Assembly: GCA_030142905.1 (NCBI GenBank)
Contig: JASJOG010000295.1
Coordinates: 62,001-126,000 of the forward strand
Length of the DNA stretch: 64,000 nt
Direction: 5' to 3'
Origin: Heliopora coerulea
Taxonomy: Eukaryota; Cnidaria; Anthozoa; Scleralcyonacea; Helioporidae
Under the pieces are notes generated by a model. The model ran no database searches. It saw only the letters and a list, made by a program, of their open reading frames with translations, and was not told where the DNA came from. Shown here piece after piece: positions 12,447 through 28,419 of the stretch (position 1 is the stretch's first letter; every line of letters starts with the position of its first letter). A program made the translations under genes and the position numbers.

Positions 12447-13490
12447 ACCTAGCTGATAAAGTATTTTACAATTTAAATCCAAATATATTCTCATAAGTGT
12501 CAATCATTTCATTCATGTAATGACCATATGCCAGTGTATCTATTTTATTTTCAAGTATTATTCTTTTATCATCTTTTGCTGACAATGCAATTTTTTCAAT
12601 ACTCTCAGTATACAATTCATGATTTCGGTGTCTTATTAAATTCTTCTTCAGTAAATAAACAATCTTTATAATTTTGAAATGTTAGATTTTTTTCAATAAC
12701 ATTTTTCTTAACACCTTTACATCTTTTTGACACCTTTGGTGCGTTGTCTTTTTCATCTATTTTATAAGAATATAATTTTGCTCTCAGCCCTACAAATTCT
12801 TCTATTTGTTTACCACCGCACTCATCTTTCATCATTCCAATTACTTTTTTGTTTAAACCGGTTTTAATTCCGCTTTCATGTTCTTTTGGATAATTACTTG
12901 TGTCAAACATTTTTTCAACATCTGGGGTTATATCTTTATAAAAATCTTCAGTTTTAATTTCATACATTAAACTGTCAGTATCTGTAAATAACAACCGCGC
13001 ATTTTCACCTTATTTTAATTTAATATAATTATAATGAAAATCATACATTAAAGTCTTTGATAAATCTAATATGCTCATTCCTAAATATATAGGTTTATCT
13101 AGCTTAATTTTTTTCTTATGCATATGCACAGCAATTAAATTTTCAGAAAATATTGTTCTTTTGTTAAAATTAGTTTTTGAAAATAATTTTAAAGGTTTTT
13201 CTTCTCTGTTAACTAATTGTATATCAACTCTGTTTCTAACATTCTCCATAGTTTTTCCAAACACAGAATTATTCATAAGTTTGAAAAAGTCTTTTTCAAA
13301 TTCATTTTTTGCTTCTGTTCTCAGTTTTGTGTTTAAATCAATATATTTTTTCATAAAATCGTCTTCATAAAATTTAATACCTTTATAAATTCCACTAATT
13401 TTTAATCCTAATTTTTCATATAATTTCAAATTTTCACTATGTAAAACATATTTTTCTTTATTATTCAAATTTGGTATTAATTTTTCAACA

Positions 13491-13535
13491 GCACACGAAG
13501 TGTGTGAACCGCCAGGTGATCCTGCTCCACAGGTA
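13491..13535. repeat. Mini-hairpin insertion inside polymerase gene
   Basis: CACAC-GAA-GTGTG at 13492-13504 is followed by TGAACCGCCAGGTGA. On the coding strand it makes a Gly/Ser/Cys-rich peptide (GTCGAGSPGGSHTSCA) between PLAPERLKV and EKLIPNLNN. From memory of the family these two segments are usually close together. It is in frame and GC-rich in an AT-rich gene. Confidence 0.75.
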
Positions 13536-15058
13536 CCAACTTTTAATCTTTCTGGTGCTAGCGGGTATTCGTTATGTAAATCATGGAGATCTTCAGGGTA
13601 TTCCAAGTTAACTTCTAATATACAAGAAAATTTTTCCCAATTTTGTAATTCCTTTTCATTCATCCATTTAAAATCTCTCACAGGAAGTTTTTTACCCATA
13701 GCCCACCCATAAAGATTATTTGCGTCTAAATAAGCAAGATATATATTATCTTCTTCACGATTATACTTTGAACTCATATAAGGATTATTAGCTTTTGCAT
13801 ATCGCTTTGTAATAGTGGAAATTCCTCCTCTAATTCCATTTTCAACCATAAGATACATTTGTGGGTCAGATAATAAGTCCAATTCAACTCCAGTTATTTT
13901 TAACATTGCATCCCAAGCAAGCCCTGGAGAAGTATAATACCAAGCGGGGTCTAATTTATAATTTTTTTTACAAACTTTTCTAAAATTTTCAAAAACATCT
14001 GCTAACAAAATAACATCAGTTTTTAGATATAAATCATAATACTCTCTCATATTTTTAATATTAAATTTTTTCCAAACATTTTGCGCATGTTCATAGTCTG
14101 CTTCGCTTATATTTTCATCATTTAATTTTGAATAAAATTCCTTAATATCAGGTAATTTTACTTCTTTTAATTTTTCAATACTATCAAACCAATCATATGG
14201 AAACACCCCTTTTCTAGTTAGTAATTCTCGTTCACTTTGTTCACTGTAAAATTTTTTCATGATGTTTAAATCGTTTTCATTCAAGTTGCTTACTAATTTT
14301 CCTAAACTACTTGACATAAATTTAAAACTATCAATAAATCTAATTTGTTTTTTAACATTAATCACTTCTTTGATTTTAAATTTTAAGTTGTTGTTAGAGT
14401 TGTTTTGTGTTTCAACATTTTCACCTTTTTCATTATATTCAATTTTTTCATCTTTTTCAACGTTACTTAATATCTCATATTCAATTATGTTCGATTCATT
14501 TTGTGATTTGTTTTGAAATTGTTTTTCAGTGATAATTTTTTCAGAAACAAATTTATCAACAATAATTTCCTTTGTAAATGAAATATATTTCTCCTCAGTG
14601 TTGGGTATACAATTAATTTCACCTTCTGAAACACCTAGATTTTTTATAAACAAATGACTATCATAATTTTGTAAATTGTGAAATATAACTGGAATAAATT
14701 TAGGATTTTTCATTTTTGAATTACAACTAGTACAAGCAGCACCTCGATATTTTCCTGTATAATGACAATGGTCTTTAACTTTACCGTTATCAGCAAATTC
14801 TTTTCCACATGCATAACATTTATTAGCTTTTTCAAAATCTTTTTTATCCTTTTCTCTTAATATTATCTTTTTTGAAAATTTAAATTGCTCATGAATTTTT
14901 TTAATATCATTTTCAAGCATTTCTACAAATTTTGTTGAAACATCATCATAATTATCTTTTTTTGTGTAAATAACTGATTTTGGAGGAAATAAATTATCAT
15001 CAAAACATTTTATCAAATAACAAAATCCAGAAGGTTCATGTTTTCGAAATTGTTTTGT

Positions 15059-15092
15059 ACGCGAAGCGTGTTCACCTGACGGTTCACCAATA
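15059..15092. repeat. Mini-hairpin insertion inside polymerase gene (second)
   Basis: ACGC-GAA-GCGT at 15059-15069 is followed by GTTCACCTGACGGTTCACC. Its reverse complement shares TGAACCGYCAGGTGA with the 13491 element, in the opposite orientation. It encodes GEPSGEHASRT within the exonuclease region. Confidence 0.75.
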
Positions 15093-16651
15093 TTTTTATC
15101 CTCATATTTTAAATTACATTCAAAATCTGCATAAATTACAAATGGAACATTGTGCATTTTTTCATAATTTTTAAACTTTAATTTTTCTCCTTTATTTGGA
15201 TAAACAGTTTTTCCACATTTATATTTTGAACAATATTCCAAATGATTTTTAAGAGTTTTTTCATTTCTAAAATTTTGTAAACAATAATTACAAATATGTA
15301 TTTTTTCTTTGCTTTTATTGACTTGGGTTGAAAATAATCTGTTCATATTTTTAATTAAACAATAATGTTTATCACCATTTTCATTGGTTATTAACAATAT
15401 GTTCACATGCGTGTTTGCATGTGTGTTCACATGCATGTTGATTTGTTCCAAGTCTAATTTACTCACCCTCAAAGGAAAAATTTCGTGATTTTTATTTCAA
15501 AACCTTTTTTCTTCATTATATCCAAATAAATTAATTGCAATGTTATTATTTTTTTCAAATTTATCAATATCTGTAAACCCACACGGGAATTTCATACCTT
15601 TTGTATTAAAACTCTCAGCTTTCTTGTTTAAAATTTTTGTAATTCTTCCAGGATTTTTCAAATTAGGATTAGTTTTAAAAAGTTCACAATAAACATTTTT
15701 GGTCATCATTTTGTGGATTAATAATTGCATTTTTATTTTTTAAAAATTTTGGAGTAGGAATATAAGATGATGCAAGTAATCGTTTAATTTTGTTAATATT
15801 AAGAATTATTTTTAAATTTTTATCAAATTTCCATAAACTTGAATTTCTTAAAAATTCTTCGAAACTTTGAATAATTTTATTTTTCATTTTTTCATATATT
15901 TCATCAAAATTGCTTCCATCAAAAATTTCTTCATAATAACTATGAAAATGTGCTTTATCTGTAGTTTCTTCTCCAGTTGCTGGATTTACTTTTTTCATTA
16001 AACATACAAGAGTTATTTGTTGCTTTGTACTTGGGTATTTTTTAAATTTTTTTATTACCAATGGTTTTATTTTTCCCAACAGACTCAAAGGGTCATATAA
16101 AGATAATCCGAATTTTTCCAAATCCATTTCATATCTTTTTGTTACTTTCAAAGCTTCTTTATTCAATTTAAACTTTGGTTCTGAAATATCACTATAATAT
16201 AAATCATATTCTTGGTTTCCTTGTAAATCATTAAATATATCTAAAACATTTTTTTCTAAATCATTATACCAATTTTTAGTATTTTTGTTTATTTTGTATT
16301 CATCAAATAAATGAATTGTTTCTTCTCTATATTTTTTAAATGAATTATTTATTTTTTTGAATTAATATTTGAATAATATTTTTGAGGTCTCAATATTTCA
16401 TTATAGGAATAATTAGGATTTGGAGAATCAAGTATATAACCAGTATCTGGAGTACCAAGTGTATAATTACCATCTGTAGTATCAGGTGTATCATCAGTAT
16501 CTATAGAATCAATAATATAATTATCATATGGAGAATCATAAACATCATACATATCATCATTATCTGGGTAATCAATTTCATTACCCGAATTTAAAAAATA
16601 ATTTTGGTTAAATAAAGAAGGTGCATTTTTATAAGTTAGTCTTGTGTTCAT

Positions 16652-16673
16652 TTATTTATATATATATTTTTTT
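16652..16673 (-). promoter_or_regulatory. TATATAAATAAATG start-site motif of the polymerase gene
   Basis: The minus strand reads ATATATATATAAATAA directly before the ATG at 16651. The same AAATAA or TATAAATAA run abuts the ATG of many genes in this element: 18109, 18423, 18935, 20671, 21343, 22652, 23770 and 27170. It may be a late-type promoter or short leader. Inference only. Confidence 0.5.
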
Positions 16674-16759
16674 AAATACTTTTTAAACGTGAAAAAAATT
16701 TTTTTAAAAGTGATAATATCACGTGACTTATTTATATAAAAAATAATAAAAAAATAAAA

Positions 16760-16818
16760 GGAACACTTTGTGTTCCTGAGCAAAGCAAAAGAATAAAAAT
16801 CAAACGATTTTTATTCTT
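16760..16818. repeat. Intergenic hairpin cassette A1
   Basis: GGAACAC-TTT-GTGTTCC at 16760-16776 (7-bp stem, 3-nt loop) is followed by TGAGCAAAGC, then a perfect 13-bp stem AAGAATAAAAATC (16789-16801) and its complement (16806-16818) with loop AAAC. It lies just downstream of the gene ending at 16872, so it could act as a 3'-end or terminator structure. The same cassette recurs at 17223-17313. Confidence 0.85.
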
Positions 16819-16871
16819 AATTAATAATAAATTTTAATTAAATGATATTGAAAATGTTTTTCCGTTGCTTT

Positions 16872-17174
16872 TTAAGTCTTTTTTGTTTTTATTCTATATT
16901 TTATACATTCTGCATTAATGTTAAAATTTTTTGCAGCAGAATGAAGACTAATAAAAGTTAAAATTTCACCTGTTTCTTTGTTTTTAATAATTATTGATAC
17001 TGGTTTATTAATTTTTCCTCTACAGTATTTTTCATATTTTTCATTAGGTTTTGTGATTTCAAAACCTAACATTTTTTCAAGTTCATTTTTATTATAATTA
17101 TTATAATATTTTATTTTTCTACTTTTTGCAATTTCTCTTAATTGAGAAATATTATAATTACTTTGATTATTCAT
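16872..17174 (-). CDS. SAP-like plus NUMOD1-like DNA-binding protein
   Basis: A 100-aa protein of the Polinton. Residues about 8-36 (ISQLREIAKSRKIKYYNNYN, then a KNELEKML helix) look like a SAP-type DNA-binding helix pair. Residues about 58-92 (PVSIIIKNKETGEILTFISL, then HSAAKNFNI) match the NUMOD1 module that binds DNA in phage and intron homing endonucleases. No nuclease catalytic domain is present, so a DNA-binding or regulatory role is likely. The ATG at 17174 follows CTTAAATAAAAT. Its upstream ~33 bp and downstream hairpin cassette are shared with the next gene at 17342-17641. The C-terminus is Lys-rich and may be shortened. Domain calls are by eye; the function is inferred. Confidence 0.7.
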   Translation of the reverse strand: MNNQSNYNISQLREIAKSRKIKYYNNYNKNELEKMLGFEITKPNEKYEKYCRGKINKPVSIIIKNKETGEILTFISLHSAAKNFNINAECIKYRIKTKKT

Positions 17175-17209
17175 ATTTTATTTAAGAGAAAATTTTTTAA
17201 AAGAAAAAA
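17175..17209 (-). promoter_or_regulatory. Leader shared by two MNNQ genes (copy 1)
   Basis: The upstream sequence, with core TTTTCTCTTAAATAAAA just before the ATG, matches 17642-17675 upstream of the neighbouring gene nearly base for base. The match continues into the first codons (MNNQ in both). It is a likely duplicated promoter or leader. Confidence 0.65.
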
Positions 17210-17222
17210 TGAAAAAAAAAAA

Positions 17223-17313
17223 GGAACACAAAGTGTTCCTGAGCAAAGCGAAAGAATAAAAATCAAATGAACACAAATCGTTCCTGAGTTCAACGAACAT
17301 GATTTTTATTCTT
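17223..17313. repeat. Intergenic hairpin cassette A2
   Basis: GGAACAC-AAA-GTGTTCC at 17223-17239 is followed by TGAGCAAAGC, then AAGAATAAAAATC (17252-17264) pairing with 17301-17313. The loop holds a further mini-hairpin GTTC-AAC-GAAC (17288-17298). It is the same cassette as 16760-16818 with a longer loop, and lies downstream of the gene ending at 17342. Confidence 0.85.
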
Positions 17314-17341
17314 AAATACACACACAGTCACATAGCAGCCT

Positions 17342-17641
17342 TCAATGATTAAATATAAAAATATTAAATAATGGTTTTAATCTTTTTGGTTTCAAAATAA
17401 TTTTATAATTTGTATAAATTTGTTCTTCGGTTTCATAATCAATTTCAAAATCACTAAAAATACAAAATTTTCCTTTATAATTTATAATAAATTCATGATA
17501 TGTTAATAATTCTCCTTCACCTAAAATTTTATAAATTTCTTCAATAAAAATATAATATAAATGATCTTTATCTTTATTTTTATAATCTTCATAATCTAAA
17601 AACACCTCAACAACTTTTTCTGAAACTACTTGATTGTTCAT
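17342..17641 (-). CDS. Hypothetical Polinton protein (99 aa)
   Basis: I do not recognise this protein. It is 99 aa, rich in Tyr, Glu and Lys, with alternating hydrophobic stretches (VVEVFLDYEDY, HLYYIFIEEIYKIL, FCIFSDFEIDYE) that suggest a small mixed alpha/beta fold. There is no signal peptide or membrane helix. The ATG at 17641 follows CTTAAATAAAAA. It begins MNNQ like its downstream neighbour and shares that gene's leader and 3' hairpin cassette, but the rest of the protein is unrelated. An early or accessory role is possible but not supported by any motif. Confidence 0.6.
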   Translation of the reverse strand: MNNQVVSEKVVEVFLDYEDYKNKDKDHLYYIFIEEIYKILGEGELLTYHEFIINYKGKFCIFSDFEIDYETEEQIYTNYKIILKPKRLKPLFNIFIFNH

Positions 17642-17722
17642 TTTTTATTTAAGAGAAAATTTTTTAAAAGAAAAATTTTTTTCATACAAATTTGTAAACT
17701 ATGTAACCTCGTGAAAGTCCAA

Positions 17723-18109
17723 TCAGAAAAAAGCTACATTTTGATATTCTTTCATTTCATCTGAAGGTTTATAATAATCTTCCAATTTTGGTTCATTTTC
17801 CGATGAATTATTATACTCAAGTGACAAATTTTTCTCGCGTTGATATGCTTCAGCAAGAGTTTTCAAAGACATGTTTGTTCGATTTATATCAGCATTTGCA
17901 TCAGATAATTGTTGTCTTAACCTTTCAATTTCTTCTTTTCTTTTCACTTGCTCTTCATACCATTTTTCCTTTGCTTCGCTCAGTTTTTCCATTGCTTCAT
18001 TATGTCTTTTTATCTCTTTTTCATATCCAGAATGATTTAATTTTGAAAATAAAAATCCAGCATCTGCAAAAGCAACTGCATTAAATAATCCACCAACTAC
18101 TGTTTCCAT
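17723..18109 (-). CDS. Coiled-coil protein with hydrophobic N-terminus (128 aa)
   Basis: The N-terminal ~25 residues (METVVGGLFNAVAFADAGFL) are hydrophobic and glycine-containing, as in a membrane-inserting helix. Residues about 30-110 form a long charged coiled coil (KRHNEAMEKLSEAKEKWYEE and following heptads). The C-terminus is acidic and Tyr-rich. I believe similar proteins recur in cnidarian Polintons, but I cannot name a family. A virion or membrane-associated structural role is plausible by inference. The ATG at 18109 is preceded by GAAAAATAA. The gene is intact and lies in the leftward cluster between the MNNQ genes and two small membrane proteins. Confidence 0.65.
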   Translation of the reverse strand: METVVGGLFNAVAFADAGFLFSKLNHSGYEKEIKRHNEAMEKLSEAKEKWYEEQVKRKEEIERLRQQLSDANADINRTNMSLKTLAEAYQREKNLSLEYNNSSENEPKLEDYYKPSDEMKEYQNVAFF

Positions 18110-18136
18110 TTATTTTTCTTTAATTTTTTTATTTTA

Positions 18137-18185
18137 CAGCTTCGCTGCTGACAGAATCTTTGATTCTGGATCCTTCGGTCGATCG
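18137..18185. repeat. Mini-hairpin cluster
   Basis: CAGC-TTC-GCTG (18137-18147) is followed by CAGAATC-TTT-GATTCTG (18152-18168; 7-bp stem, triloop), then GATCCTTCGGTCGATC. It is intergenic between two leftward genes. The modules and spacers match those at 21384-21464 and 25119-25181. Confidence 0.85.
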
Positions 18186-18189
18186 CTTT

Positions 18190-18423
18190 CTAAGATTTGA
18201 AAGGGTTCTCAGGAATCCACTTTTTGTCTTGTGCATATTTAATTCCAAGTGTTGATAATCCTACAGCTGCTGTAAGTTTTAAAGTAGGAACTAAACTAGC
18301 CGGAGTTGACAAACCATCACTAAATACTCTTCTTGTTATCATTCCGATTCCCACAGCACCCATTGTAATTAGTGTAGAATCATATAATTCATTCATAGCT
18401 TCTTTTCTATTCATTTCGGTCAT
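18190..18423 (-). CDS. Small membrane protein (77 aa)
   Basis: A 77-aa protein with a hydrophobic, glycine-rich central segment (about residues 16-32, STLITMGAVGIGMITRR) and a second one (about 44-62, LVPTLKLTAAVGLSTLGIKY), so probably two membrane helices. It ends in a charged tail. The ATG at 18423 follows TATATAAATAA, the start motif common in this element. It is intact. I cannot assign a family; a virion membrane or assembly role would fit its neighbours, but this is inference. Confidence 0.6.
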   Translation of the reverse strand: MTEMNRKEAMNELYDSTLITMGAVGIGMITRRVFSDGLSTPASLVPTLKLTAAVGLSTLGIKYAQDKKWIPENPFKS

Positions 18424-18456
18424 TTATTTATATACATAAAAAAATTTTTTTTATTA

Positions 18457-18507
18457 AAAACCTGTAAGGTTCTTTGGACGATCACGGTTTGCTTTCTTAC
18501 AGGTTTT
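18457..18507. terminator. Hairpin at gene end (12-bp stem)
   Basis: AAAACCTGTAAG at 18457-18468 pairs with CTTACAGGTTTT at 18496-18507. The stop codon of the leftward gene 18497-18931 lies inside the right arm. Position and structure suggest a 3'-end or termination hairpin. Function inferred. Confidence 0.55.
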
Positions 18508-18931
18508 CAATAGAACACCTTGATGGACCACCCTGCAATTGTGGACTTTTAATTTTGACCTCATTCTTTCTTACTATTTCTTTTTCTTCTCTTTGTTGCT
18601 GCAGCTTCGCTGCACGTGAGACCTCTGGTCGATGCGCTGCAGCTTCGCTGCTTTCCCTTTTGTCTTTTTTATATGCAAAGTATAATCCACCCAGCGCAGC
18701 AACAACTCCTACCCCTCCAATCAAATACCGCAAAGCGAAAGGTTCAAAATCAATGTAATTATTTATTTCTTCATTTTCTACTTCGCTTCGCTGTCTTGCT
18801 TTTCTTTCTTTTGCTTCTCTTGAAATTTTTGCTAATCTTTTTCCCAATTCTACTTTTCTTGGGTCTTTTACTTTAACAGCTTTGCTACTTTCAGATTTTT
18901 CAACTGCTGTTACTTTATCAACCTTGTTCAC
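18497..18931 (-). CDS. Single-pass membrane protein with mini-hairpin-encoded insert; start disturbed
   Basis: The protein has a basic N-terminal half (Lys/Arg-rich coiled stretch, LGKRLAKISREAKERKARQR), one clear membrane helix (about residues 69-87, YLIGGVGVVAALGGLYFAYK) and a charged C-terminal tail. The tail residues SSEAAAHRPEVSRAAKL are encoded by the mini-hairpins at 18601-18651. The only ATG placed after the usual TATAAATAA motif is at 18935, in a different frame that meets a stop after five codons. The long frame opens at a GTG (18931). A one-base change close to the start is therefore likely, and the gene may be defective. No family recognised. Confidence 0.6.
   Translation of the reverse strand: MNKVDKVTAVEKSESSKAVKVKDPRKVELGKRLAKISREAKERKARQRSEVENEEINNYIDFEPFALRYLIGGVGVVAALGGLYFAYKKDKRESSEAAAHRPEVSRAAKLQQQREEKEIVRKNEVKIKSPQLQGGPSRCSIENL
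18601..18651. repeat. Mini-hairpin cluster inside coding sequence
   Basis: GCAGC-TTC-GCTGC (18601-18613), GACC-TCT-GGTC (18620-18630) and GCAGC-TTC-GCTGC again (18639-18651), joined by CACGTGA and GATGCGCT. All lie in the 3' part of the membrane-protein gene and keep its frame. Confidence 0.9.
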
Positions 18932-19183
18932 TCATTTATTTATAATTTTATTTTTTTATTTAGAATTTATTCAAACAGCGAAGCTGAGCGCAAGCGTTAT
19001 TTACATGTTATTTATAAATAAAATTAAATAAAAGTCAAGTAAATTTTAAATAACCACAAATGTTATTTAAAATTTATTTACAATTTATTTAAAATTTATT
19101 CAAAGTTATTTATGAATAAAATTAAATAAACCTAAAAGTACTGCAAAGCAGTTCAAGTAAATCCTTAAAACAGTCCTTCCAGG
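18932..19183. other. AT-rich spacer with mini-hairpins and TTATTTA repeats
   Basis: It contains CAGC-GAA-GCTG (18976-18986), CGC-AA-GCG just after it, and ACTGC-AAA-GCAGT (19140-19152). Between them lies a run of related TTATTTAAAATTTATTTA and AAATTAAATAAA words, partly in inverted arrangement. No gene seen. Confidence 0.7.
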
Positions 19184-20671
19184 TTACAAATCATTTAAAA
19201 TAGATTCATCAAAATCTACATTAAATTTTTTACACAATGCAACATGATTTGTTAATATTTCTTTTTCGTTCATTTTTCTTTCAGTTAATATAGAAGTGAA
19301 AAAAATCTCTCCTTCAAATATAAAAGTATTTTTTGAAATATCAGATCCAAAAAGTAAATTATTTGTTCCACTTGTTATTGCTCGAGATGTAAAATCTTTA
19401 ATTAATTTTCCATTTGCCCAAAAACTTGATTTATTTGTTTTTGGATTACTTTCCGCATCAATATGAACACTTATGCAATGGACTTTGTATTTTTCAAAAA
19501 TATTTGTTTTAATTGGAAAATAACTTTGATCTATCTCATAATAGTCTGTTGTTCCTCCACCATATATAACAAATTTATTTTTATTTTTATATCCAAATCC
19601 TCTCCAATTATCTTGATCTGTATTTTTATTCCCCATTATTATTGTCATTTTGTCATTATTAAGAGTATAATCCAAAATTAAATAAACAAGGAAAAAATTT
19701 AAATAATCTTTTTTTCCTGATTGAGTATTGATGTTTAAATTTAAACTCATTTTGCTGTTAAGTCCGTGAAAGAATAAAATTTTTTTATTTGAAACATAAC
19801 TAGAATTTTTAAAAATAGGTTGTTTTGATTTGTTGGTTTCTGTAAAATTTTCATCTGAAATTTTTGATTGATTATACCAAACTTCTATTTTTTTATCTGT
19901 TCCATCATATTTTAAATAACTTGTTCGATCATAAATTTCACCATAAAAATTAAAATCCGAATTTAATATGAAACTTTGAATAAGGTTTAATTGGTGGGCA
20001 GTATTTTTAAGCGAAGTGCGCACCGTTTCGGTTTTATCATTAACAAGTTTGTCCACTTATTTTTTCCTAGTTAAATGTGTATTTTCTGTTGGATCTGAAT
20101 TTTTAATAATTTTATGATTTCCCATATTAATATCTCCAGTCATTGTTCCACCTGTTTTTGATAATTTTGTATCAACATATTTTTTTCTCGTCAAATGTGT
20201 TTGAAGTGTGGGATTTGTTGAAGAAATAATTTTATTATTTCCAATTGTTATATCACCAGTCATTGTTCCTCCAGATAAAGACAATTTTGTATCATGTTGA
20301 TCATCCACATATTTTTTTCTTGTGAGTGAATTGTCGCTGTTTGGATCTGAAGTTGTGATGATTTTATTATTCCCAATTGTGATATCACCTGTCATTGTTC
20401 CTAATGATAAAGGTAATCTGGTGTTATCTCTATCATCCACATATTTTTTTCTTGAAAGAGCATCTTTATAGTCTGGATCTTTTGAGGTTAAAACTTGATA
20501 AGTATTTGTGTAAATATCTCTTTTAATTTTACTTCTTTCAACACCCAACCAAGTGACTTTTTCCATTTTTATAAAGTTTATAATGTCTCCTGTCGTATCC
20601 CCTCCTGTAGTGGAAAGTTTTCCTGTTACATCAGATTCATGTTTGCTTTCATATCCGTAAAATAAACTCAT
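19184..20671 (-). pseudogene. Fibre protein: tail-fibre-like repeats plus lectin-like C-terminal domain, one in-frame stop
   Basis: One frame of about 495 codons, interrupted only by TAA at 20057-20059. The N-terminal third has four repeats of about 40 residues built on LSLSGGTMTGDITIGNNKI followed by an LTRKKYVD word. This resembles the shaft repeats of phage tail fibres and would form a trimeric fibre. The stop replaces the Tyr of the fourth RKKYVD word, so it is a point lesion. The C-terminal ~270 residues are rich in beta strands (KIEVWYNQ, KFVIYGGGTTDYYEID, SFWANGKLIKDF, EGEIFFTSILT) and resemble a concanavalin/LamG-type jelly roll, likely the receptor- or glycan-binding head. The ATG at 20671 abuts the stop of the preceding gene (TAAATG). 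Confidence 0.8.
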
Positions 20672-21343
20672 TTATTTAATAATAATTTCCAATAAAACAT
20701 TTCCAATTGAACCACTACCATGGTTTCCTTCTACTTTGAATATTAATTCATTATAAATTCCATTTGATAATTTTATTCCTCCTGTTTCTTCAGGCGGATA
20801 AATTTTAGAAACACTGCCTTTTAATGTTTGTTCAGATTCAATTGGAATTTGTATAAGAATGTCACTTCTTTTACCATTTACAAAATTTTTACTTTTATCA
20901 ATCATATTACAGCTTATGTTTACATATTCCAAATTATTGTTGATATTTACTTCGTTGTCACTTTCTGTTAAAGTATTTGGAGATATAACTTTATTAACGG
21001 GAAATCCTAGTATGGGTGCAAATGTTTGTAAATTTAATGTTTTATCTGATTTTATTGTACATTTTCCTGAAAAATCAATTTGTTCCTGTTCAATTTTTCC
21101 AACATTTTCAAATTCTGTTTTTAAAATATTAAAGGTATAATACCCATCTTTGAATCCAATTTTTGTATTATTATAGGTATAATGATGAATATTTGCATCC
21201 AAATTATTATAATTCCAAAAAATACTTACTGATTTTACAAACATTTTACCGCTACAATTACTTAATATAATTGGTTCATCTAATGGAATTATTTTTTCTG
21301 AGTTTTCATCTTTTGTGATGAAGATTTTTAAAGATATTGTCAT
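20672..21343 (-). CDS. Probable minor capsid (penton-like) protein
   Basis: A 223-aa protein with strand-rich sequence throughout, no membrane helix and no enzymatic motif. It starts SLKIFITKDENSEKIIPLDE, with later strands such as KMFVKSVSIFWNYNN, SDILIQIPI, YNELIFKVEG and NVLLEIII. Size and strand pattern fit the single jelly-roll penton protein that forms the capsid vertices in Polintons. Its place directly upstream of the fibre gene fits too, because fibres attach to pentons in adenovirus-like capsids. The ATG at 21343 follows TATAAAATAA; the stop codon touches the fibre ATG. The gene is intact. The penton assignment is inferred from size, composition and context. Confidence 0.55.
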   Translation of the reverse strand: MTISLKIFITKDENSEKIIPLDEPIILSNCSGKMFVKSVSIFWNYNNLDANIHHYTYNNTKIGFKDGYYTFNILKTEFENVGKIEQEQIDFSGKCTIKSDKTLNLQTFAPILGFPVNKVISPNTLTESDNEVNINNNLEYVNISCNMIDKSKNFVNGKRSDILIQIPIESEQTLKGSVSKIYPPEETGGIKLSNGIYNELIFKVEGNHGSGSIGNVLLEIIIK

Positions 21344-21383
21344 TTATTTTATAATATATATTTTGATTCAAAACTTTGTTCCT

Positions 21384-21464
21384 GCACCTTTGGTGCTGAG
21401 ACCTCTGGTCGATGACAGAATCTTTGATTCTGGATCCTCTGGTCGATCAGAGCACGTACCGTGC
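21384..21464. repeat. Mini-hairpin composite cluster B1
   Basis: In order: GCACC-TTT-GGTGC (21384-21396), GACC-TCT-GGTC (21400-21410), CAGAATC-TTT-GATTCTG (21416-21432), GATCC-TCT-GGTC (about 21434-21444), GCACG-TAC-CGTGC (21452-21464). The first three, read on the minus strand, have the same order and linkers (TCATC and TCA) as the cluster at 25119-25181. Confidence 0.92.
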
Positions 21465-21805
21465 GATTAAAATTCCACCAATTATTGATAAAGATAAAAC
21501 AATTAAATTATCACCCGTAGCAGCGTTTGTGCCGGTTTTTAATTGTTTGCTGGACCTTTGGTCCTGCACCTTTGGTGTTGCACCTTTGGTGCTGAGACCT
21601 TCCGTCGATGAGAACTTCGTTCGATGTTTTTTGTTACTTTAGCAACCAAAGGCTGTTTATTGGTCTATGGTTGTTGTTCAGTTCCTAATGTTTCTAATTT
21701 TTTCAAGTCATGCGCTCCCAGTTGTTTTTTTACAGCGCTTGCGCCGGCTACGCCGTGTTCTTTAACCCGGTAATAATTTAAATTTTTGTTAATTCCAAAA
21801 ACCAT
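21447..21805 (-). pseudogene. Small membrane protein gene, broken and carrying mini-hairpins
   Basis: The ATG at 21805 opens a basic N-terminal segment (MVFGINKNLNYYRVKEHG). It meets TAG near 21676-21678, then TAA near 21535, with a frame change near the second. Beyond that a different frame encodes a clear membrane helix (NLIVLSLSIIGGILIARYVL) before TGA at 21447-21449. The middle part is made largely of mini-hairpin DNA (21552-21622). This looks like a small single-pass membrane protein gene damaged by stops and a frame change, with palindromic insertions inside it. No family recognised. Confidence 0.55.
21552..21622. repeat. Mini-hairpin composite cluster B2
   Basis: GGACC-TTT-GGTCC (21552-21564), CACC-TTT-GGTG (21567-21577), GCACC-TTT-GGTGC (21580-21592), a degenerate GACCTTCCGTC (21597-21607) and GAAC-TTC-GTTC (21612-21622). 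Linkers TGA and GATGA match cluster B1. Nearby are GCGCTTGCGC (21737-21746) and GGC-TAC-GCC. Confidence 0.9.
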
Positions 21806-21820
21806 ATTTTCATCAGAAAC

Positions 21821-22630
21821 TTATAATTTATTATTATAACCATCAATAGGATTTTTTAAAATAATTAAAGATGATGGAATTAACCATAAAGTTGGACTTA
21901 TAGCAGTATTTAAAACAACATTTGTAGCGGTTATAGCATTATTCATATTATTTATCCATGTTGTTGTATCATAATTTACAATGGAATCTTCAACAATTTG
22001 TCTAAAAACTTTTTGTGTCTCCAATGCTGAAGCTCTATTTGAAACAATACTTTGTCTAGTCCTAGCTTGTGCTCCAAGGATTGAATAAATATATGCTTCA
22101 ATGCTTTTATTCAATAATTCAGTTCCCTTCTTGATTAATCCATCTGAAATTTTTGGAACAAATTTTTTATAATCATTTTGAGTATCTTTAAGTTGACCAG
22201 GACCATGTTGATAACCAGGCCATGGTGTGGTTGTATCAATTGCATGATGATCTCCAATGTTTCTTTTTTTCTGTGTAATTTCTTGCCATGTCCATTTTGG
22301 ATAGTGATCTTTTAAAAACCCAGCATTAAATTTATTAAAGACTTTATCATCACCATTTCTCAGTTGCCACATAATTCTTCTAACTGTAAAATATAGATGA
22401 AATCTCATAAATGATGTAAAAACGAATTATTTTTAAACCAAATATGATAACCTTGAAAAACAGCATTTTTATCAAAATCAGCTTCGAAGGTAAACCTTGA
22501 CATGTCTGCATAGGGATATTTTTTTTTTAAAATATTTTTTCTCCAATTCAACATCTTCTTTAATATTTTTCATAACATAATCATAATTTTTCCCATAATA
22601 TTTTCTTTCAAATTTTTCAGTTGAATTCAT
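21821..22630 (-). pseudogene. Unrecognised Polinton gene, two frame changes
   Basis: The ATG at 22630 opens a charged segment (MNSTEKFERKYYGKNYDYVM). The frame changes in the A-run near 22520-22530, continues as MSRFTFEADFDKNAVFQGYH, and changes again near 22408. The last 195 codons (22408-21821) are then open: a Trp/Lys-rich segment (RRIMWQLRNGDDKVFNKF, YPKWTWQEITQKKRN), a helical region with LLNKSIEAYIYSILGAQART, and a hydrophobic C-terminal part (SPTLWLIPSSLIILKNPI). I do not recognise the family. It starts back-to-back with the integrase gene, the two ATGs separated by about 20 bp of symmetric AT-rich sequence, so they probably share a divergent promoter. Confidence 0.6.
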
Positions 22631-22651
22631 TGTTTATTTTAATAAAAATAA
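22631..22651. promoter_or_regulatory. Divergent promoter between two Polinton gene blocks
   Basis: Only about 21 bp (TGTTTATTTTAATAAAAATA) separate the leftward ATG at 22630 and the rightward ATG at 22652. The sequence is nearly symmetric and AT-rich, with an AATAAA-type word facing each start. It marks the switch from the leftward to the rightward gene block. Confidence 0.5.
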
Positions 22652-23764
22652 ATGAACAAAGTTAGCGACAAAGACAACATGATTGTTATTGAACAAGAGT
22701 TAAGAGACATTTACTAAAACCCAGAAACAGGTTATCAATCTGCTGAAAGACTTTATCAAAAAGCAAAAGAAAAGGGATTAAATGTTAGTAGAAAAATTGT
22801 GCAAGACTGGTTAAAAACACAAGATACTTTTACAAGATACAAACCAATTGTTAAAAGGCATAAATTCCAAAGAACATTTGTCAAAGATTTAGCTGATCAA
22901 ATACAAATGGATTTGGTTGATATGGGAAAATACAAAAACCAGAACAAAGGATATTATTGGATACTGACAGCTGTTGAAATTTTAAGTAGATTTGCATTCA
23001 CTATTCCTGTTTACAGAAAAGATACTAAAAACATGACAAAAGCTGTGGATGACTTATTAAAACAATTTAAAGAAAGATTTGGTAAATACCCAAAAGTCGC
23101 TCAATTTGATGAAGGAAAAGAATTTTACAATGTAGGTGTAAAAGAACTATTCTAAGAACATAATGTTGAATATTTTTCTACAAACTCTAATAGAAAAGCA
23201 GCTATAGTTGAAAGATTTAACAGAACTCTAAAAACATCCATGTGGAAATATTTCTATAGCAAGGGAACTTATAATTGGATTAACATTTTGAGTAACCTTG
23301 TGAATAATTATAATAATACTAAACAAAGTAGTATATTAATGAAACCTGCTGATGTGAACAAGTCTAACAAAGACCAAGTGTGGATTACACTATATGGTTA
23401 CCCATTAGGAGATTTACCTTTACCTAAATTCAGAATTGGTGATACTGTTAGAATTTCTAAATATAAGAATATCTTTACTAAAGGTTATGAAGCTAATTTT
23501 ACAGAAGAAATTTTTAAAATTGTAAAAGTATTTAGAGGTGATCCAAACATGTATGAAGTGGAAGATTTAGAAGGAGAACCAATCATTGGAAAATTTTATG
23601 AACAGGAACTATCTGCTGTGGATAAAAAGGATGATATATATAAAGTAGAGAAAATATTAAAAAGAAAAAAAGTGAAAGGAAAAAATATGGTGTTGGTAAA
23701 GTGGTTAGGTTATGATAACAAACACAATTCTTGGCTACCAGAAGAAAATATTCAAAACATATAA
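22652..23764 (+). pseudogene. Polinton integrase (rve core plus chromodomain), two in-frame stops
   Basis: One frame of 371 codons from the ATG at 22652, interrupted by TAA at 22715-22717 and 23153-23155. It would catalyse integration of the element. The rve/DDE core shows the first Asp in LADQIQMDLVDM, the second in AQFDEGKEF and the Glu in AAIVERFNRTLKTSMW. The second stop falls between the second Asp and the Glu. The C-terminus is a chromodomain (IYKVEKILKRKKVKGKNM, LVKWLGYDNKHNSWLPEEN), typical of Polinton integrases and probably targeting chromatin. The N-terminal part (YQSAERLYQKAKEKGLNVS) fits the family's helical leader. With these stops the protein cannot be made whole. The two stops replace unlike residues, so codon reassignment is not a good explanation. 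Confidence 0.92.
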
Positions 23765-23769
23765 AATAA

Positions 23770-25092
23770 ATGGATGAAGGTTTTGATGATATAGAAATGA
23801 GAAATAGAAATAATGAAGAAGAAGAAGAAGACCGTGAGGACGAAGAAGGGGAAACAAGTTTTGGTGGGGATGACCCTGATGATCATAATAGAAGTATTGG
23901 TATAATAAACACAGAAAATACAAGAAGAAAATTTAATAGAGTGTCTCCTATGAGACTATCAAGAGTCAGATTGGATAGAAGACTTAAAGGAATAACATAT
24001 GGAGAAAGAATAATAAAATTTAAAAATATATTTGATATTGATCTTGATAAAAATGCAGGACCAAATAATAGTATCTTGTTGGATAATACAAAATTTCGTG
24101 AAAACAATAAAGGAAATATTTCTATAATTTACAAAGATAGAAAAATTGGTGATTTTAATTATAAAGACGGCGAACCAAAGTTTTTTCCCAAAAAAAATAA
24201 GAACTTTATTAAAGAATTTAAAAGTAATATGAAAAAAGCAAGAAAAGAATATGAAAAAACACCAAATTCTGCGATAAATGAAAAAATATCTAGAGATGAG
24301 AATTTTGAAATGGAAGAGATTGAGAGAAGAAATATCACTGATGATTCTATTTTAGAAATTCAAACTAAAATTGATAATATAATTGGTGAAAATAACTTAA
24401 AAAAATTCGTTGATAATGAACAGGATCCAAGACGAACATTATTTGAAAGAAATGAATTAAGAGAATTTAGAGGACTAGTATATTTGGAAGGTATTGACTC
24501 CACGCTGTCAGAAAATGAAAAAAAAGAAGTTATACGTGGAAAAATTGAGGGATTTGATAAAGAGCATCAACATTGGAAAATGAAAGCTGAATTGCAACCA
24601 GACAACACTCCACAAAAAGATATATACAAAGCTTTTTCAGAAATTGCAAAACTTCAAGCAGATAAAATGAGACTTGAAAATAATGAAAGACCAATTAGTG
24701 AAGAAGGAATACAGATTTTAAATGAAAATGCTGAAGAATCTGACTTTGGAAGATTAGAAAGATTTAAAAAATGGGCAAAAGAAAATTTATTAGGTTTATC
24801 AGCAGTTGCCATTTCTGTAGCAGGTATAATTACAACAATTGTTATGGGAGCAAGAAACGCATTAAAACAAGGTGCGAAAGCGGTTGGAAATTTAGGAAAA
24901 GCAATTGCAAATATAGGTAAAAATTTTGGTGCAGTCATTTCAGCAGTTTTAAATTTAATTTCTCAAATATTATCATGGGGTGCAAAAGGTATTGCTTTTC
25001 TAGCTAAAAATTTATGGATATTAGTTATTGCAATTACTTACTTTTTATACAATGAATATAAGTACAGCAAAGCTGCTAAAGTACAAACATAG
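23770..25092 (+). CDS. 440-aa protein with acidic N-terminus and hydrophobic C-terminal tail
   Basis: An intact frame starting five bases after the integrase stop, with TATAAAATAA before the ATG. Residues 1-40 are very acidic (NNEEEEEDREDEEGE), and the middle is charged and helical (KKARKEYEKTPNSAINEK and beyond). Residues about 340-425 hold two or three membrane-type segments (LLGLSAVAISVAGIITTIVM, AVISAVLNLISQILSWGAKG, LWILVIAITYFLYNEY), with a Gly/Ala/Lys amphipathic linker between. The last residues YSKAAKVQT are encoded by a mini-hairpin (CAGC-AAA-GCTG, 25065-25075). I do not recognise the family. A virion membrane or internal protein is plausible from its place before the capsid gene. 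Confidence 0.65.
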   Translation: MDEGFDDIEMRNRNNEEEEEDREDEEGETSFGGDDPDDHNRSIGIINTENTRRKFNRVSPMRLSRVRLDRRLKGITYGERIIKFKNIFDIDLDKNAGPNNSILLDNTKFRENNKGNISIIYKDRKIGDFNYKDGEPKFFPKKNKNFIKEFKSNMKKARKEYEKTPNSAINEKISRDENFEMEEIERRNITDDSILEIQTKIDNIIGENNLKKFVDNEQDPRRTLFERNELREFRGLVYLEGIDSTLSENEKKEVIRGKIEGFDKEHQHWKMKAELQPDNTPQKDIYKAFSEIAKLQADKMRLENNERPISEEGIQILNENAEESDFGRLERFKKWAKENLLGLSAVAISVAGIITTIVMGARNALKQGAKAVGNLGKAIANIGKNFGAVISAVLNLISQILSWGAKGIAFLAKNLWILVIAITYFLYNEYKYSKAAKVQT

Positions 25093-25259
25093 AAAGAAAA
25101 CACATCTACCGGAGGATTCAGAATCAAATATTCTGTCATCGACCGAAGGTCTCAGAAGCGAAGCTGCAGCACCAAAGGTGCAGCAGTTAAGCTGCAGCTC
25201 TTCTGATAAACAACCATAAGTTGGTAAAACAAAAATTTTTAATTTTTATATAATAAAAA
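25093..25259. repeat. Mini-hairpin composite cluster B3 between two genes
   Basis: CAGAATC-AAA-TATTCTG (25119-25135, one mispair), GACC-GAA-GGTC (25141-25151), AGC-GAA-GCT (25157-25165) and GCACC-AAA-GGTGC (25169-25181), then GCAGTTAAGCTGC. Module order and linkers match cluster B1 read on the opposite strand. The rest is an AT-rich leader ending TATAATAAAAA before the capsid ATG. Confidence 0.9.
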
Positions 25260-26499
25260 ATGAATAGAGTAAACGAATTATATCCAGGATATAAAAGATC
25301 AAAAATGAGTGAAATTAAAGGAAACAGAACGAGGCGTGTTGTAACTTTGAATCCGAATTCAGCAAATCCTGAAGAAGATCTTTACATAGATATTCCCAAA
25401 CTAAATCCAAATTTGTGTTTGGTTCCCGATAGTTTAAGATTGTCATTTAATTTCAAAAATTCAAATACCAAATCTTGGTTTTTAAATAATTTATCAAAAC
25501 TTTTAAAGAAAAGATTAATTGTTAAAATTGCATGGGGACATTGTTTACGACAATACCGGAGAATCTTTATTGGAAATTTACAAAGATTTGTGGAAACCTG
25601 AATATGAAAGAGCGGATATGATTGAATACGGAATCGCGAGAGAGAATCTAAGAAAATTAATTTCAAAGGATGATAGTGGAGCAACAAGTGGAAATGCACA
25701 AAACGTTAGTGATAAATTAATGTTTGATACTTACGGAACAAAACAATGTTTGAAATTAGAAAAAATACTTTCGGATCATGGATTATATGCTCCTTACGGA
25801 ATGATTAACAATTTTCAATACATTTTAACTTTACCAAAATCTAGTGAAATTATGGTTGCACAAAGTGGTGAAAATGTCGGTAATTATACTTTAGAAAATT
25901 TAGAATTGGAGTATGAAACTATTGAAAATTTAGATTTAACAAATGATGTTTTATCAAATTATTCCACAGGAAGATCACTATCATATAATTATGTAACTTT
26001 GATGAAAACAGTAGAATGGAAAAAAGATGCGACTTTACATAATGAAACCATAAATATTCCGCGGAAGAGTATGAAAGCAGTTGTGCTGTTATTTAGAAAT
26101 AAAACTATCACAGATAGTGAACAATTTGTTTACCCAAATATAACTAATGTAAAAATCAGTGTTGAAGGAATTCCAAATTCTATTTATTCACAAGGATTTC
26201 CCAAACGGAGATTTTTCGAAGAAGCGTTTAGAATATTTCATTGTGGATATGCAAAATGTGATTCGGTCATGAGTGTTGAGAAATTTTACAAAGACTCATT
26301 TGCATTATGTATTGATTTGAGAACATTTGATGATAATTTTGTTTATGGGAATGGAAAAAAATTGGTAAATACACAGTCTGGACTATTGCTAGAAATTGGA
26401 AAAACTGCTATTTCTGCAAATGTAATGTGTTATATATTTGTGATAAGTGATGGATTGTTAAACATTGTAAATAAAGATTTGTCTTCAATTCAATTTTGA
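25260..26499 (+). pseudogene. Major capsid protein (double jelly-roll type), one frame change
   Basis: About 412 codons in two frames: 25260 to about 25525, then about 25525 to 26499, with the change at a short A-run in GTTAAAATTGC. The first part has RRVVTLNPNSANP and VPDSLRLSFNFKNSN. The second has GDIVYDNTGESLLEIYKDLW, DHGLYAPYGMINNFQYILTL, NLELEYETIENL and FVISDGLLNIVNKDLSSIQF. These words and the length match, as I recall them, the Polinton/adintovirus major capsid (hexon) family that builds the icosahedral shell. The gene lies immediately before the packaging ATPase, as expected for a virion module. The frame change prevents full-length product unless it is an assembly error. Confidence 0.75.
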
Positions 26500-26532
26500 A
26501 AACAAAAATCAAGGATTTTTGAAAAATAAAAA

Positions 26533-27177
26533 ATGAATGACAGCAAAGCTGAACACGAAGTGTGTAACAAAAAACCATTTAATATGATAATTGTTGGAAT
26601 GACTGCTTGTGGAAAAACAAAATATCTTTTAGATTTTATAGAAAATAAATATAAAAATTATTTTGATTATATTTTTTTAATTTGCCCGACATTTGAATTG
26701 AATAAAACTTATGAAAATTGGAAATATGATAAAGATGAAGATTTTATTGCTATTCCTTGTGATCAAGATAATGTTGAAGATTGGTTAAAATTTATAGTTG
26801 ACTTTTCAAAAGGAAGTAAAAGTTTAATCATATTGGATGATTGTGCAAGTGGAAAAAATGTTAAAAATAGAACAAGTGAGTTGGTTAAATTAGGATTTAG
26901 TGCTAGACATTATAATCTTTCTGTTGTAGTTATAACGCAGCAGTTGACATCTATTGCTAAACCATTTAGAGAAAATATTTCAAAATTAGTCACATTTTAT
27001 AATCCGAATAAAAAAGATATGACAACAATAATTCAAGAATATTTAGACCTACTGTCCGCAAGCGGTGTAGGCGACCGCAAAGAATTGGAAAAAATTTTAG
27101 AAACTTTGAAAACAAAAAAATATTCATGTTTAGAAATAAATTTAATTTTTCCATTTGGTTATAAAATAAATGAGTGA
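26533..27177 (+). CDS. Genome-packaging ATPase (A32/FtsK-HerA type)
   Basis: 214 aa, intact. It would drive viral DNA into the preformed capsid. The Walker A motif GMTACGKTKYL is at about residues 22-32 and the Walker B motif SLIILDDC at about 97-104. The downstream segment SVVVITQQLT (about 136-145) supplies the sensor-like Gln. This layout is typical of the A32-like packaging ATPases of Polintons and large DNA viruses. The N-terminal SKAEHEVC residues come from two mini-hairpins (26541-26563), and SGVGDRK near residue 177 overlaps another (27056-27065), both placed outside the conserved core. The stop overlaps the next gene's start by 8 bp, suggesting co-expression. Confidence 0.9.
   Translation: MNDSKAEHEVCNKKPFNMIIVGMTACGKTKYLLDFIENKYKNYFDYIFLICPTFELNKTYENWKYDKDEDFIAIPCDQDNVEDWLKFIVDFSKGSKSLIILDDCASGKNVKNRTSELVKLGFSARHYNLSVVVITQQLTSIAKPFRENISKLVTFYNPNKKDMTTIIQEYLDLLSASGVGDRKELEKILETLKTKKYSCLEINLIFPFGYKINE
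26541..26563. repeat. Mini-hairpin pair at ATPase N-terminus
   Basis: CAGC-AAA-GCTG (26541-26551) is followed directly by ACAC-GAA-GTGT (26553-26563). Both are in frame and lie between the start codon and the conserved ATPase sequence. A third, CCGC-AA-GCGG, is at 27056-27065 near the C-terminus. Confidence 0.85.
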
Positions 27178-27688
27178 AAATAGTGAACATGTAGAAGTCC
27201 CGCAAATTGAGACAAGTACAACCGCAAGTGAAGAAAAGCAAACGCAAGATGTTAAAAAAGAAGTAATGAAAAAACGAGAAGAATTAATAAAATTATCTGA
27301 AGATGGGGAAATTAGTCAATCAGTACAAAATTTGAAAAAATCAAGTGATAAAGTTATATTAAAAATTTATTCTGAATATGAAGTAAAACAAGCAGAAAAA
27401 GCAAATTCATTTTTAACAGATTTACTAATTAGTAAATTTGCAGATTTATTAGGTGGGTTAGAAGCAATTGAAAACAGTAAAGAATTGGAAAAAGAACCGG
27501 TGAAAGATGAATTATTAAAAAGAGATGTAAAATCTGTAGTTGAAAAATTAAGTCCATATTTACCATATCTTGGAATATTATCTGGTGGAGTTACAGTTGG
27601 AAAACATGTTATTAAAAAACATAGCAAAAAAGACGACATCAGAGCTGGTCGTCAACAAGTGAGTGAACAAGTTAGTCAAACTGAATAA
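27170..27688 (+). CDS. 172-aa Polinton protein with hydrophobic segment near the C-terminus
   Basis: An intact frame overlapping the ATPase end by 8 bp, with ATAAAATAA before the ATG. The N-terminal ~100 residues are charged and helical (KKEVMKKREELIKLSEDGE, ENSKELEKEPVKDELLK). Residues about 128-146 (LSPYLPYLGILSGGVTVGKH) form a hydrophobic glycine-containing segment followed by basic residues, like a membrane-interacting helix. I do not recognise the family. Its place directly after the packaging ATPase suggests a virion or assembly role, by inference only. Confidence 0.65.
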   Translation: MSENSEHVEVPQIETSTTASEEKQTQDVKKEVMKKREELIKLSEDGEISQSVQNLKKSSDKVILKIYSEYEVKQAEKANSFLTDLLISKFADLLGGLEAIENSKELEKEPVKDELLKRDVKSVVEKLSPYLPYLGILSGGVTVGKHVIKKHSKKDDIRAGRQQVSEQVSQTE

Positions 27689-27722
27689 TTTTATAATATA
27701 TATTGTATTATAAAATTAAAAA

Positions 27723-28124
27723 TTATTCTGTAGATTCTGAAGATGAAGGTTTAACAATTGTGTCTTTTCTGGTTATTTTACTCATAAGTGTATTTATTAT
27801 TTTATCTTTTTCTTTTGACTCACTGTTTGTTAATTCTTCATTTTCTAAAGATTTTATCAATTTCAAATGATTATTATTTTCTGAAAACTGAATTTCATGT
27901 ATATTATTTTTCCCAAACGTCATTCCAGCTTCAAAATCTTTCATTCCAACATCAACATGAGCTCCGATTCTAAAACTACTTTTTTGAATTTTTCTAAAAT
28001 TTATTGGCGGATATCGACCGAAGGTCTCAGCACCAAAGGTGCAACCATGAAGATTTAAATCTAACTTTGTATCCTTATTGGAATTATTTTTATTATTTGT
28101 TTTTGATGATATACAATTTCCCAT
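27723..28124 (-). CDS. Predicted N-myristoylated and palmitoylated protein (133 aa)
   Basis: It begins MGNCISSK. Gly2 with Ser at positions 6 and 7 and following Lys fits the N-myristoyltransferase consensus, and Cys4 is a good palmitoylation site. The product would be lipid-anchored to membranes. The next ~20 residues are Asn/Lys/Ser-rich, and the rest is polar with a strand-like segment (SFRIGAHVDVGMKDFEAGMT). The peptide GCTFGAETFG is encoded by two mini-hairpins (28017-28043). The ATG at 28124 follows AAAAAATAAAAA. The gene is intact and runs opposite to the virion block. Lipid-anchored proteins take part in membrane steps in several large DNA viruses; that role here is inferred. Confidence 0.7.
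   Translation of the reverse strand: MGNCISSKTNNKNNSNKDTKLDLNLHGCTFGAETFGRYPPINFRKIQKSSFRIGAHVDVGMKDFEAGMTFGKNNIHEIQFSENNNHLKLIKSLENEELTNSESKEKDKIINTLMSKITRKDTIVKPSSSESTE
28017..28043. repeat. Mini-hairpin pair inside acylated-protein gene
   Basis: GACC-GAA-GGTC (28017-28027) and GCACC-AAA-GGTGC (28031-28043) are joined by TCA and preceded by ATC. Order and linker are the same as at 25141 and, on the other strand, at 21384-21410. Both are read in frame on the minus strand. Confidence 0.92.
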
Positions 28125-28142
28125 TTTTTATTTATTATTTTT

Positions 28143-28346
28143 TTATTCTTGATAATAACTAATTTTTCCACAAATTTTACATCGAAATGTTCTAGGTTCT
28201 GAAATATAAATATAAAGCTTAAAAACATTATTCCAAAAAAATCTAAACAATTTACTAAATCTTAGGTAAAAATTTAGAATTTTCAAGCATTTTTTACATA
28301 TTGTAAATAAATATCTATTAGTATTTCTTAAAACTATATCATACAT
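28143..28346 (-). CDS. Small protein with two CxxC pairs (67 aa)
   Basis: 67 aa from the ATG at 28346, which follows TTTAAATAAAA. It has ICKKCL at about residues 17-22 and RCKICGK at about 55-61, a spacing that could form a zinc ribbon split by a hydrophobic, aromatic stretch (FYLRFSKLFRFFWNNVF). No family recognised. It lies just inside the right TIR, at the end of the leftward pair. Moderate doubt, because it is short and rich in codons that AT-rich DNA yields by chance. Confidence 0.4.
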   Translation of the reverse strand: MYDIVLRNTNRYLFTICKKCLKILNFYLRFSKLFRFFWNNVFKLYIYISEPRTFRCKICGKISYYQE

Positions 28347-28419
28347 TTTTATTTAAAACAAAATTCTTGAAATTAATGTATCTTTATAGCGTTATTAGAG
28401 TTTTTACTTTTGTCTAAAA

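Follow-up and report, generated by a model that had tools for sequence, protein, structure and literature searches.

The carrier Polinton and its mini-hairpins

The window analysed here, a 64,000-nt stretch of Heliopora coerulea DNA (assembly GCA_030142905.1, contig JASJOG010000295.1, positions 62,001 to 126,000 of the forward strand), carries a Polinton, a virus-like element in which short GC-rich hairpins are strongly overrepresented. Many of them belong to a repeated 30-nt pair of hairpins that very probably constitutes a mobile element in its own right, spread through one Polinton lineage. Comparisons were made across the genome, which comprises 430 Mb in 769 contigs.

The Polinton is bounded by terminal inverted repeats of 938 nt (11509 to 12446 and 28420 to 29357) that are 100% complementary to each other. 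On the minus strand, an open reading frame (ORF) of 820 amino acids (13010 to 15472) bears an endonuclease VII-type domain together with family-B polymerase motifs visible on inspection by eye, and we take it, on these motifs, to encode DNA polymerase B (PolB). The DTDS motif of the polymerase lies in the neighboring ORF (12617 to 13009), past an in-frame stop, and the main ORF ends between conserved motifs at 13010; hence, this copy of the Polinton looks broken. The plus strand encodes a retroviral-type integrase with a chromodomain (22718 to 23764) and, on profile evidence, an A32-type packaging ATPase (26533 to 27177). An in-frame stop at 23155 splits the integrase into two ORFs (22718 to 23155 and 23156 to 23764), while the related copy L013 has one unbroken ORF there, and the rve domain is present in the L013 homologs. 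Terminal inverted repeats, PolB (by motifs only), a retroviral-type integrase, and an A32-type ATPase thus identify the carrier, as judged from its sequence, as a Polinton/Maverick. Profile searches of the element's ORFs gave no match naming a major or minor capsid protein of the Polinton kind. Polintons duplicate 6 bp of target on insertion; no such duplication surrounds the window copy, whose flanks read gaggtg and tgcttt. A satellite of ~380 bp occupies both sides (3249 to 11510 and 29710 to 31131), so the element sits within a satellite array. A 132-bp tandem duplication at 20229 to 20480 was also found in a Polinton gene whose product resembles phage tail-fiber proteins in a profile search.

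The initial annotation had described about 30 mini-hairpins in this element, confined to it, and had proposed comparing them with shuffled sequence and the host flanks. Counting perfect hairpins with a 3-nt loop and a stem of at least 4 bp containing 3 or more G/C (the plain criterion), we found 30 between 11700 and 29100 versus 1.9 in 20 dinucleotide shuffles (maximum 4), and 19 in the downstream flank (31200 to 64000) versus 15.9. The satellite flanks also exceeded their own shuffles (15 versus 3.0 in the left satellite, 3 versus 0.5 in the other), so the plain criterion additionally picks up repeated satellite. By analogy with stretch L019, where copies of one such hairpin lie at 6830, 7210, and 7967, spaced by multiples of ~380 bp, the satellite excess can be read as one hairpin repeated per satellite copy. 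A strict criterion adds the loop rule C-[AG]NA-G, with expectations taken from order-1 Markov resamples. Under it, the element (12447 to 28420) contained 25 hairpins versus 0.2 expected (10 resamples), the window flanks (46.1 kb) 2 versus 1.5, five host controls (25 kb) 1 versus 1.5, and two regions surrounding other-type ATPases (14 kb) 1 versus 0.4. Twenty further Polinton stretches, chosen for containing one hairpin word, held 191 versus 2.9. The family is therefore real, with no clear excess in the flanks, the host controls, or the two other-type ATPase regions under the loop rule.

Most of the hairpins originally listed were recovered within 1 base, except those at 17288 and 27056, and the one at 26553 lay outside the scan criterion (4-bp stem with only 2 G/C). 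Four perfect hairpins, not five, were found at 21384 to 21464, and of four reported at 25119 to 25181, we found three, two having loops of 3 nt and the third a loop of 6 nt. The scan also located, all on the minus strand, the hairpins CAGC-GAA-GCTG and CAGAATC-AAA-GATTCTG (given on the purine-loop strand) at 18137 to 18168, a three-hairpin array in the left arm at 18600 to 18651, and an array of GGACC and GCACC hairpins at 21552 to 21592 whose loops read TTT on the plus strand. An 8-bp-stem hairpin, AGGAACAC / GTGTTCCT, occurs twice in opposite orientation (16759 to 16777 and 17222 to 17240, loops TTT and AAA) and exceeds the standard hairpin length.

The 30-nt double-hairpin unit

The annotation had treated the single hairpin as the family member. 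The hairpins stand, and what repeats behind many of them is a 30-nt pair with the layout ATC-GNNC-loop-GNNC-TCA-GNNNC-loop-GNNNC, in which hairpin 1 is 4-3-4 and hairpin 2 is 5-3-5. The word GCACCTTTGGTGCTG, present in 190 genome copies and 0 when reversed, served to pick the 20 comparison stretches, which were fetched around sites among its first 100 listed matches. A scaffold pattern that fixes the outer and closing stem letters, leaving two pairs of stem 1 and three of stem 2 free, gave 551 genome matches versus 0 for the reversed pattern. Among the first 100 listed of these 551, the free letters paired fully in 94 first stems and 84 second stems, bearing out the claim that stems vary while the design stays constant. 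These 100 comprise 59 distinct units, of which 54 had stem 1 and 48 had stem 2 paired, versus means of 12.6 (maximum 23) and 10.6 (maximum 21), respectively, in 2000 shuffles.

Searching the 20 stretches and the window element with the scaffold, blind to pairing, returned 43 units, every one with at least 8 of 9 pairs. A structural search left lead and linker free and set three conditions on the two hairpins (no fewer than 8 of 9 pairs, closure by C-G, and a final loop A); it returned 44 units, with ATC as the lead in 40 and TCA as the linker in 40. The 41 units in the 20 stretches can cover no more than 82 of the 191 hairpins that follow the loop rule, the remainder being single hairpins or older arrays. 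The window element has three units by the structural test: an intact one at 28013 to 28042 (plus strand), which is present or absent among copies; one with a single mismatch in its second hairpin at 25138 to 25167 (plus strand), within the array 25065 to 25196; and an intact one at 21384 to 21413 (minus strand), within the array 21384 to 21464. A fourth, with a decayed first hairpin, lies at 21580 to 21609 (minus strand) within the array 21552 to 21622.

Pairs were counted over 32 of the 44 units (29 distinct). Pairing held in 98.1% of 261 cells, and the 5 unpaired cells were spread over 4 of the 9 pairs. Compensatory cells numbered 43 versus 11.8, a value that 0 of 500 shuffles reached, and shifting partners by 1 to 3 columns lowered pairing to 26 to 42%. 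These rows were preselected for pairing, so the 98.1% figure is partly built in and the covariation claim rests on the free-letter pairing in the 100 listed copies.

The loops follow a rule of their own. Among 262 hairpins found in the 20 stretches with the loop left unconstrained, 191 obeyed C-[AG]NA-G, and C-G-closed loops were AAA (79), GAA (63), GGA (16), AGA (11), GTA (8), GCA (7), AAT (6), and ACA (5), plus a tail. Demanding T at the first loop position of hairpin 1 left one genome match versus 551 for any base. DNA mini-hairpins with GNA loops and G-C stems are described, in the passages of PMC4686876 used here, as unusually stable and nuclease-resistant; the C-GNA-G loops on G-C stems of the unit are alike, while its ANA loops, about half of the total in the first 100 listed units (95 of 200), fall outside that source's statement on GNA loops. 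Strand-specific stability was rejected as the cause of the loop rule, given that the DNA and RNA folding energies of both strands are close, with the pyrimidine-loop strand slightly better.

Filled and empty sites, distribution, and orientation

Aligning the element with the 20 stretches revealed indels of exactly 30 nt, so that filled and empty alleles, as expected of the mobile micro-palindrome system that had been suggested, differ by one unit. For 26 of the 44 units, a homolog was empty with clean flanks; these gave 22 distinct flanks, merged by hand into 17 sites, and the base directly 3' of the cut was A in all of them (22/22 and 17/17). An all-against-all comparison yielded 353 distinct clean indels, not independent as events, among which 25 of the 30-nt indels carried hairpins (24 being recognizable units by eye) versus 2 that did not, and 4 indels with hairpins measured 60 nt. 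Site 28013 displays the whole series: 0 nt in six copies (L012, L016, L018, L019, L020, and L025), 30 nt in the window, L010, and L014, and 60 nt in L017, where one unit sits within another at TC^A.

Older hairpins were frequent targets. The 26553 hairpin (26553 to 26563, plus strand) is an empty target, CACG^AAGTG, whose loop is cut between 26557 and 26558 and is occupied by a unit in L020 and L027. Five of the 17 sites lay in or at the 3-nt loop of an older hairpin with a stem of at least 4 bp (in one case at the edge of the loop), where the background was 671 in 150613 A positions (0.45%); when 3-bp stems were allowed, the figure was 8 of 17 against 1.3%. By eye, two sites fell in an older unit's TC^A linker and one in a similar linker, two of these three also being among the eight loop sites. 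Nested growth of this kind explains hairpin arrays like those initially annotated. Units at the same site were identical in 12 of 15 pairs.

Context was examined for 74 of the first 100 listed scaffold matches, those on contigs C8 to C59. Sixty-five lay within 16 kb of a Polinton ATPase motif, versus 20% of random positions on eight of those contigs, and the other nine lay in Polinton-aligning stretches (L012, L013, and L019, and L036 to L039, which were covered 79 to 100%); nearness to an ATPase motif is not proof of location inside an element. A unit was found within 16 kb of 32 of 57 ATPase motifs of the window type and 3 of 42 of other types, and by eye a window-type motif lay near each of these three as well. 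Hence, for the part of the genome examined, the data support specificity of the unit to the lineage of the Polinton in the window; the annotation had supposed specificity to the element. Beyond this genome, the scaffold pattern gave two matches in the viral metagenome contigs of IMG/VR, neither of which pairs, an earlier exact word gave none, and an ATPase search of IMG/VR returned no relative. Unit-coded peptides were absent from 240 ATPase and integrase homologs (the best 120 of 1244 and the best 120 of 1171).

Thirty-six of the 44 units could be placed on window coordinates. All 14 in the left arm were on the minus strand, and in the right arm 18 of 22 were on the plus strand and 4 on the minus. 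Outside 27.70 to 28.02 kb, 26 of 26 units matched the direction of the neighboring ORFs; within that interval, near two converging ORFs, 4 were minus and 6 plus. The switch occurred between 21775 and 22663, at a divergent ORF pair and away from the midpoint (20433). Replication polarity was discarded as the cause, since forks meeting at 20433 predict a switch there and 10 of the 14 left-arm minus units lie to its right. Relative to ORFs taken as genes, 17 of the 36 units were sense, 13 lay between, and 6 were antisense. Of 59 distinct units, 59, 59, and 57 were free of stops in the three sense frames, respectively, and one antisense frame had a stop in all 59; with a length of 30 nt and open sense frames, the unit can reside inside genes, as in the integrase ORF of L013, the polymerase ORF of L023, and the ATPase of L027. 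In the window, the PolB ORF contains the plus-strand hairpin CACAC-GAA-GTGTG (13492 to 13504, by scan and alignment), which overlaps the beginning of a segment of 42 nt (from 13495) missing in copy L021, and the start of the ATPase gene contains CAGC-AAA-GCTG (26541 to 26551, plus strand), where L010 has a unit. The ATPase homolog P0038 has a repeated N-terminal KPYAA, another short in-frame repeat at the same gene end.

The downstream flank of the element holds other repeats and mobile-element genes: a Gypsy-like 1325-amino-acid ORF with reverse transcriptase, RNase H, and integrase domains (39651 to 43628), a TAACCC telomere-like array (47000 to 47478) flanked by two oppositely oriented arrays of a 21-bp repeat, and two Crypton-like ORFs with DUF3504 and phage-integrase-family domains (48639 to 49685).

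A proposed structure-defined mobile element and its alternatives

Taken together, these data lead us to regard the unit, with considerable confidence, as a 30-nt non-autonomous, structure-defined mobile element that has spread through one Polinton lineage. It is likewise highly probable that the arrays are units and nested units; the remaining single hairpins would be older or broken copies. The mobile form would be a folded single strand, most likely of DNA, and an enzyme that the Polinton or the host may supply in trans would cut and join it 5' of an A, at loops or linkers that are single-stranded. Same-site units are mostly identical, and unit families differ by paired changes, suggesting that stem pairing would be needed for the jump and not for a function at each site.

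Several observations weigh against this explanation. No target duplication beyond the single A was found in the 22 distinct flanks, and some hairpin-bearing indels have lengths besides 30 nt, for example 21 nt (10) and 24 nt (8); distinct double-hairpin families of these two lengths were considered and rejected, their members resembling, by eye, alleles at a small number of sites. In one same-site pair of the 15, the units differ by two compensatory changes, which may reflect two separate insertions into one linker, and some empty sites may be precise losses. All 20 comparison stretches were chosen for containing one hairpin word, and the 32 pair-count rows for pairing. The two measures most robust to relatedness were weak: both sides had changed in 5 pairs, a value that 15 of 500 shuffles reached, and further pair types numbered 12, reached by 91 of 500. 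Folding as DNA does not favor the purine-loop strand (−6.0 versus −6.4 kcal/mol). REP and IS200/IS605-type single-strand transposition involves short hairpins, leaves no long target duplication, and joins near hairpins in single-stranded DNA; no clear candidate for an HUH nuclease of this type (Y1, REP/IS200-IS605-like) was found by motif in the 20 ORFs of the window element, and HUH-like tripeptides in two of them are no evidence for such an enzyme. No enzyme, excised form, or transcript was seen.

The hairpins might instead be cis-acting signals of the Polinton, marking mRNA 3' ends, termination, packaging, or replication, duplicated by recombination and kept in orientation by selection. Their orientation does track transcription outside one stretch, and 13 of the 36 mapped units lie between ORFs; yet homologous sites are often empty in related copies, 17 units are sense-oriented within ORFs, units occur in the loops and linkers of other hairpins, and same-site copies are mostly identical, and we consider this unlikely. 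Replication error, by template switching or fold-back synthesis at short inverted repeats with no defined element involved, would account for perfect stems, for nesting in loops, and for hairpin indels of lengths besides 30 nt, and the long single strands expected from strand-displacement replication by protein-primed polymerases would favor it. However, it does not predict a fixed 30 nt with ends ATC...C^A, ATC and TCA recurring in 40 of 44 units when left unconstrained, or one kind of unit at 17 sites, and it seems to us quite improbable.

Precise excision from an ancestral set of units, that is, loss instead of gain, is conceivable at single sites; excision was seen in no analysis. As a general account it is very improbable: among the empty alleles are hairpin loops and older units that are intact there and split in the filled allele, and site 28013 has six empty copies versus three single and one nested. 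Chance or composition in AT-rich DNA can be dismissed for practical purposes, for although the satellite shows that repeats inflate plain-criterion counts, the shuffles, Markov resamples, host controls, and reversed genome pattern refute it.

A mobile hairpin unit has parallels elsewhere. The Rickettsia palindromic elements are bacterial selfish palindromes of ~100 to 150 bp inserted in frame in protein genes. Transposase-driven miniature inverted-repeat elements (MITEs) were rejected as a model, as the unit shares only a single A with its target, shows no target duplication of 2 bp or more, and has inverted repeats that are its internal stems. The double-hairpin elements (DHE) of fungal mitochondrial DNA, described in the cited passages of PMC4618339 and PMC5910586 from Allomyces and, as DHE-like sequences, from Candida albicans, consist of two adjacent stem-loops and are considered mobile. 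On that description, the unit is similar in its two adjacent GC-rich hairpins and its presence or absence between related copies; it differs in its Polinton lineage, its length of only 30 nt with a fixed frame, its occurrence also in genes, its varying paired stems, and its loop rule. The units, moreover, lie on large contigs in or near Polintons (74 examined of 551), unlike the mitochondrial location of DHE. Yeast mitochondrial GC clusters, as far as the sections of PMC4478555 drawn on here describe them, are short GC-rich palindromes with presence/absence turnover and merging, among which GC42 measures 42 nt and has a flanking AG duplication; the unit is instead 30 nt, with a single A, stems that differ between copies, and many copies in ORFs. 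How these clusters move was still unsettled in 2015 according to the same source. Sponge mitochondria document repeated invasions of an animal by repetitive, divergent hairpin-forming elements (PMC2800124, in part), located in intergenic mitochondrial DNA, whereas the units here occupy a virus-like element. In kind, the unit thus resembles two sorts of mobile mitochondrial element, the GC clusters and the DHE; the Polinton carrier is different. Among the titles and abstract openings inspected, full-text searches on Polintons, hairpins, and palindromes turned up no such element, although it may be described elsewhere.

Returning to a mobile element defined by its structure, we tentatively suggest that it may represent a class of micro-transposon in which the two-hairpin shape and the loop rule, not the stem sequence, are inherited. 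Such an element could travel in folded single-stranded form and enter the non-template (mRNA-sense) strand of a virus-like element, with hairpin shape and an adjacent A being recognized and the Polinton machinery serving it. At 30 nt, it would rank, to our knowledge, with the smallest elements whose movement is directly documented by filled and empty sites. Mobile hairpin elements would then reach beyond organelles, to a virus-like element in a large genome, as a gene-less parasite of a parasite that provides a natural set of insertions inside viral genes. Its hundreds of copies and strict insertion-point rules would make the question of how hairpin elements move testable.

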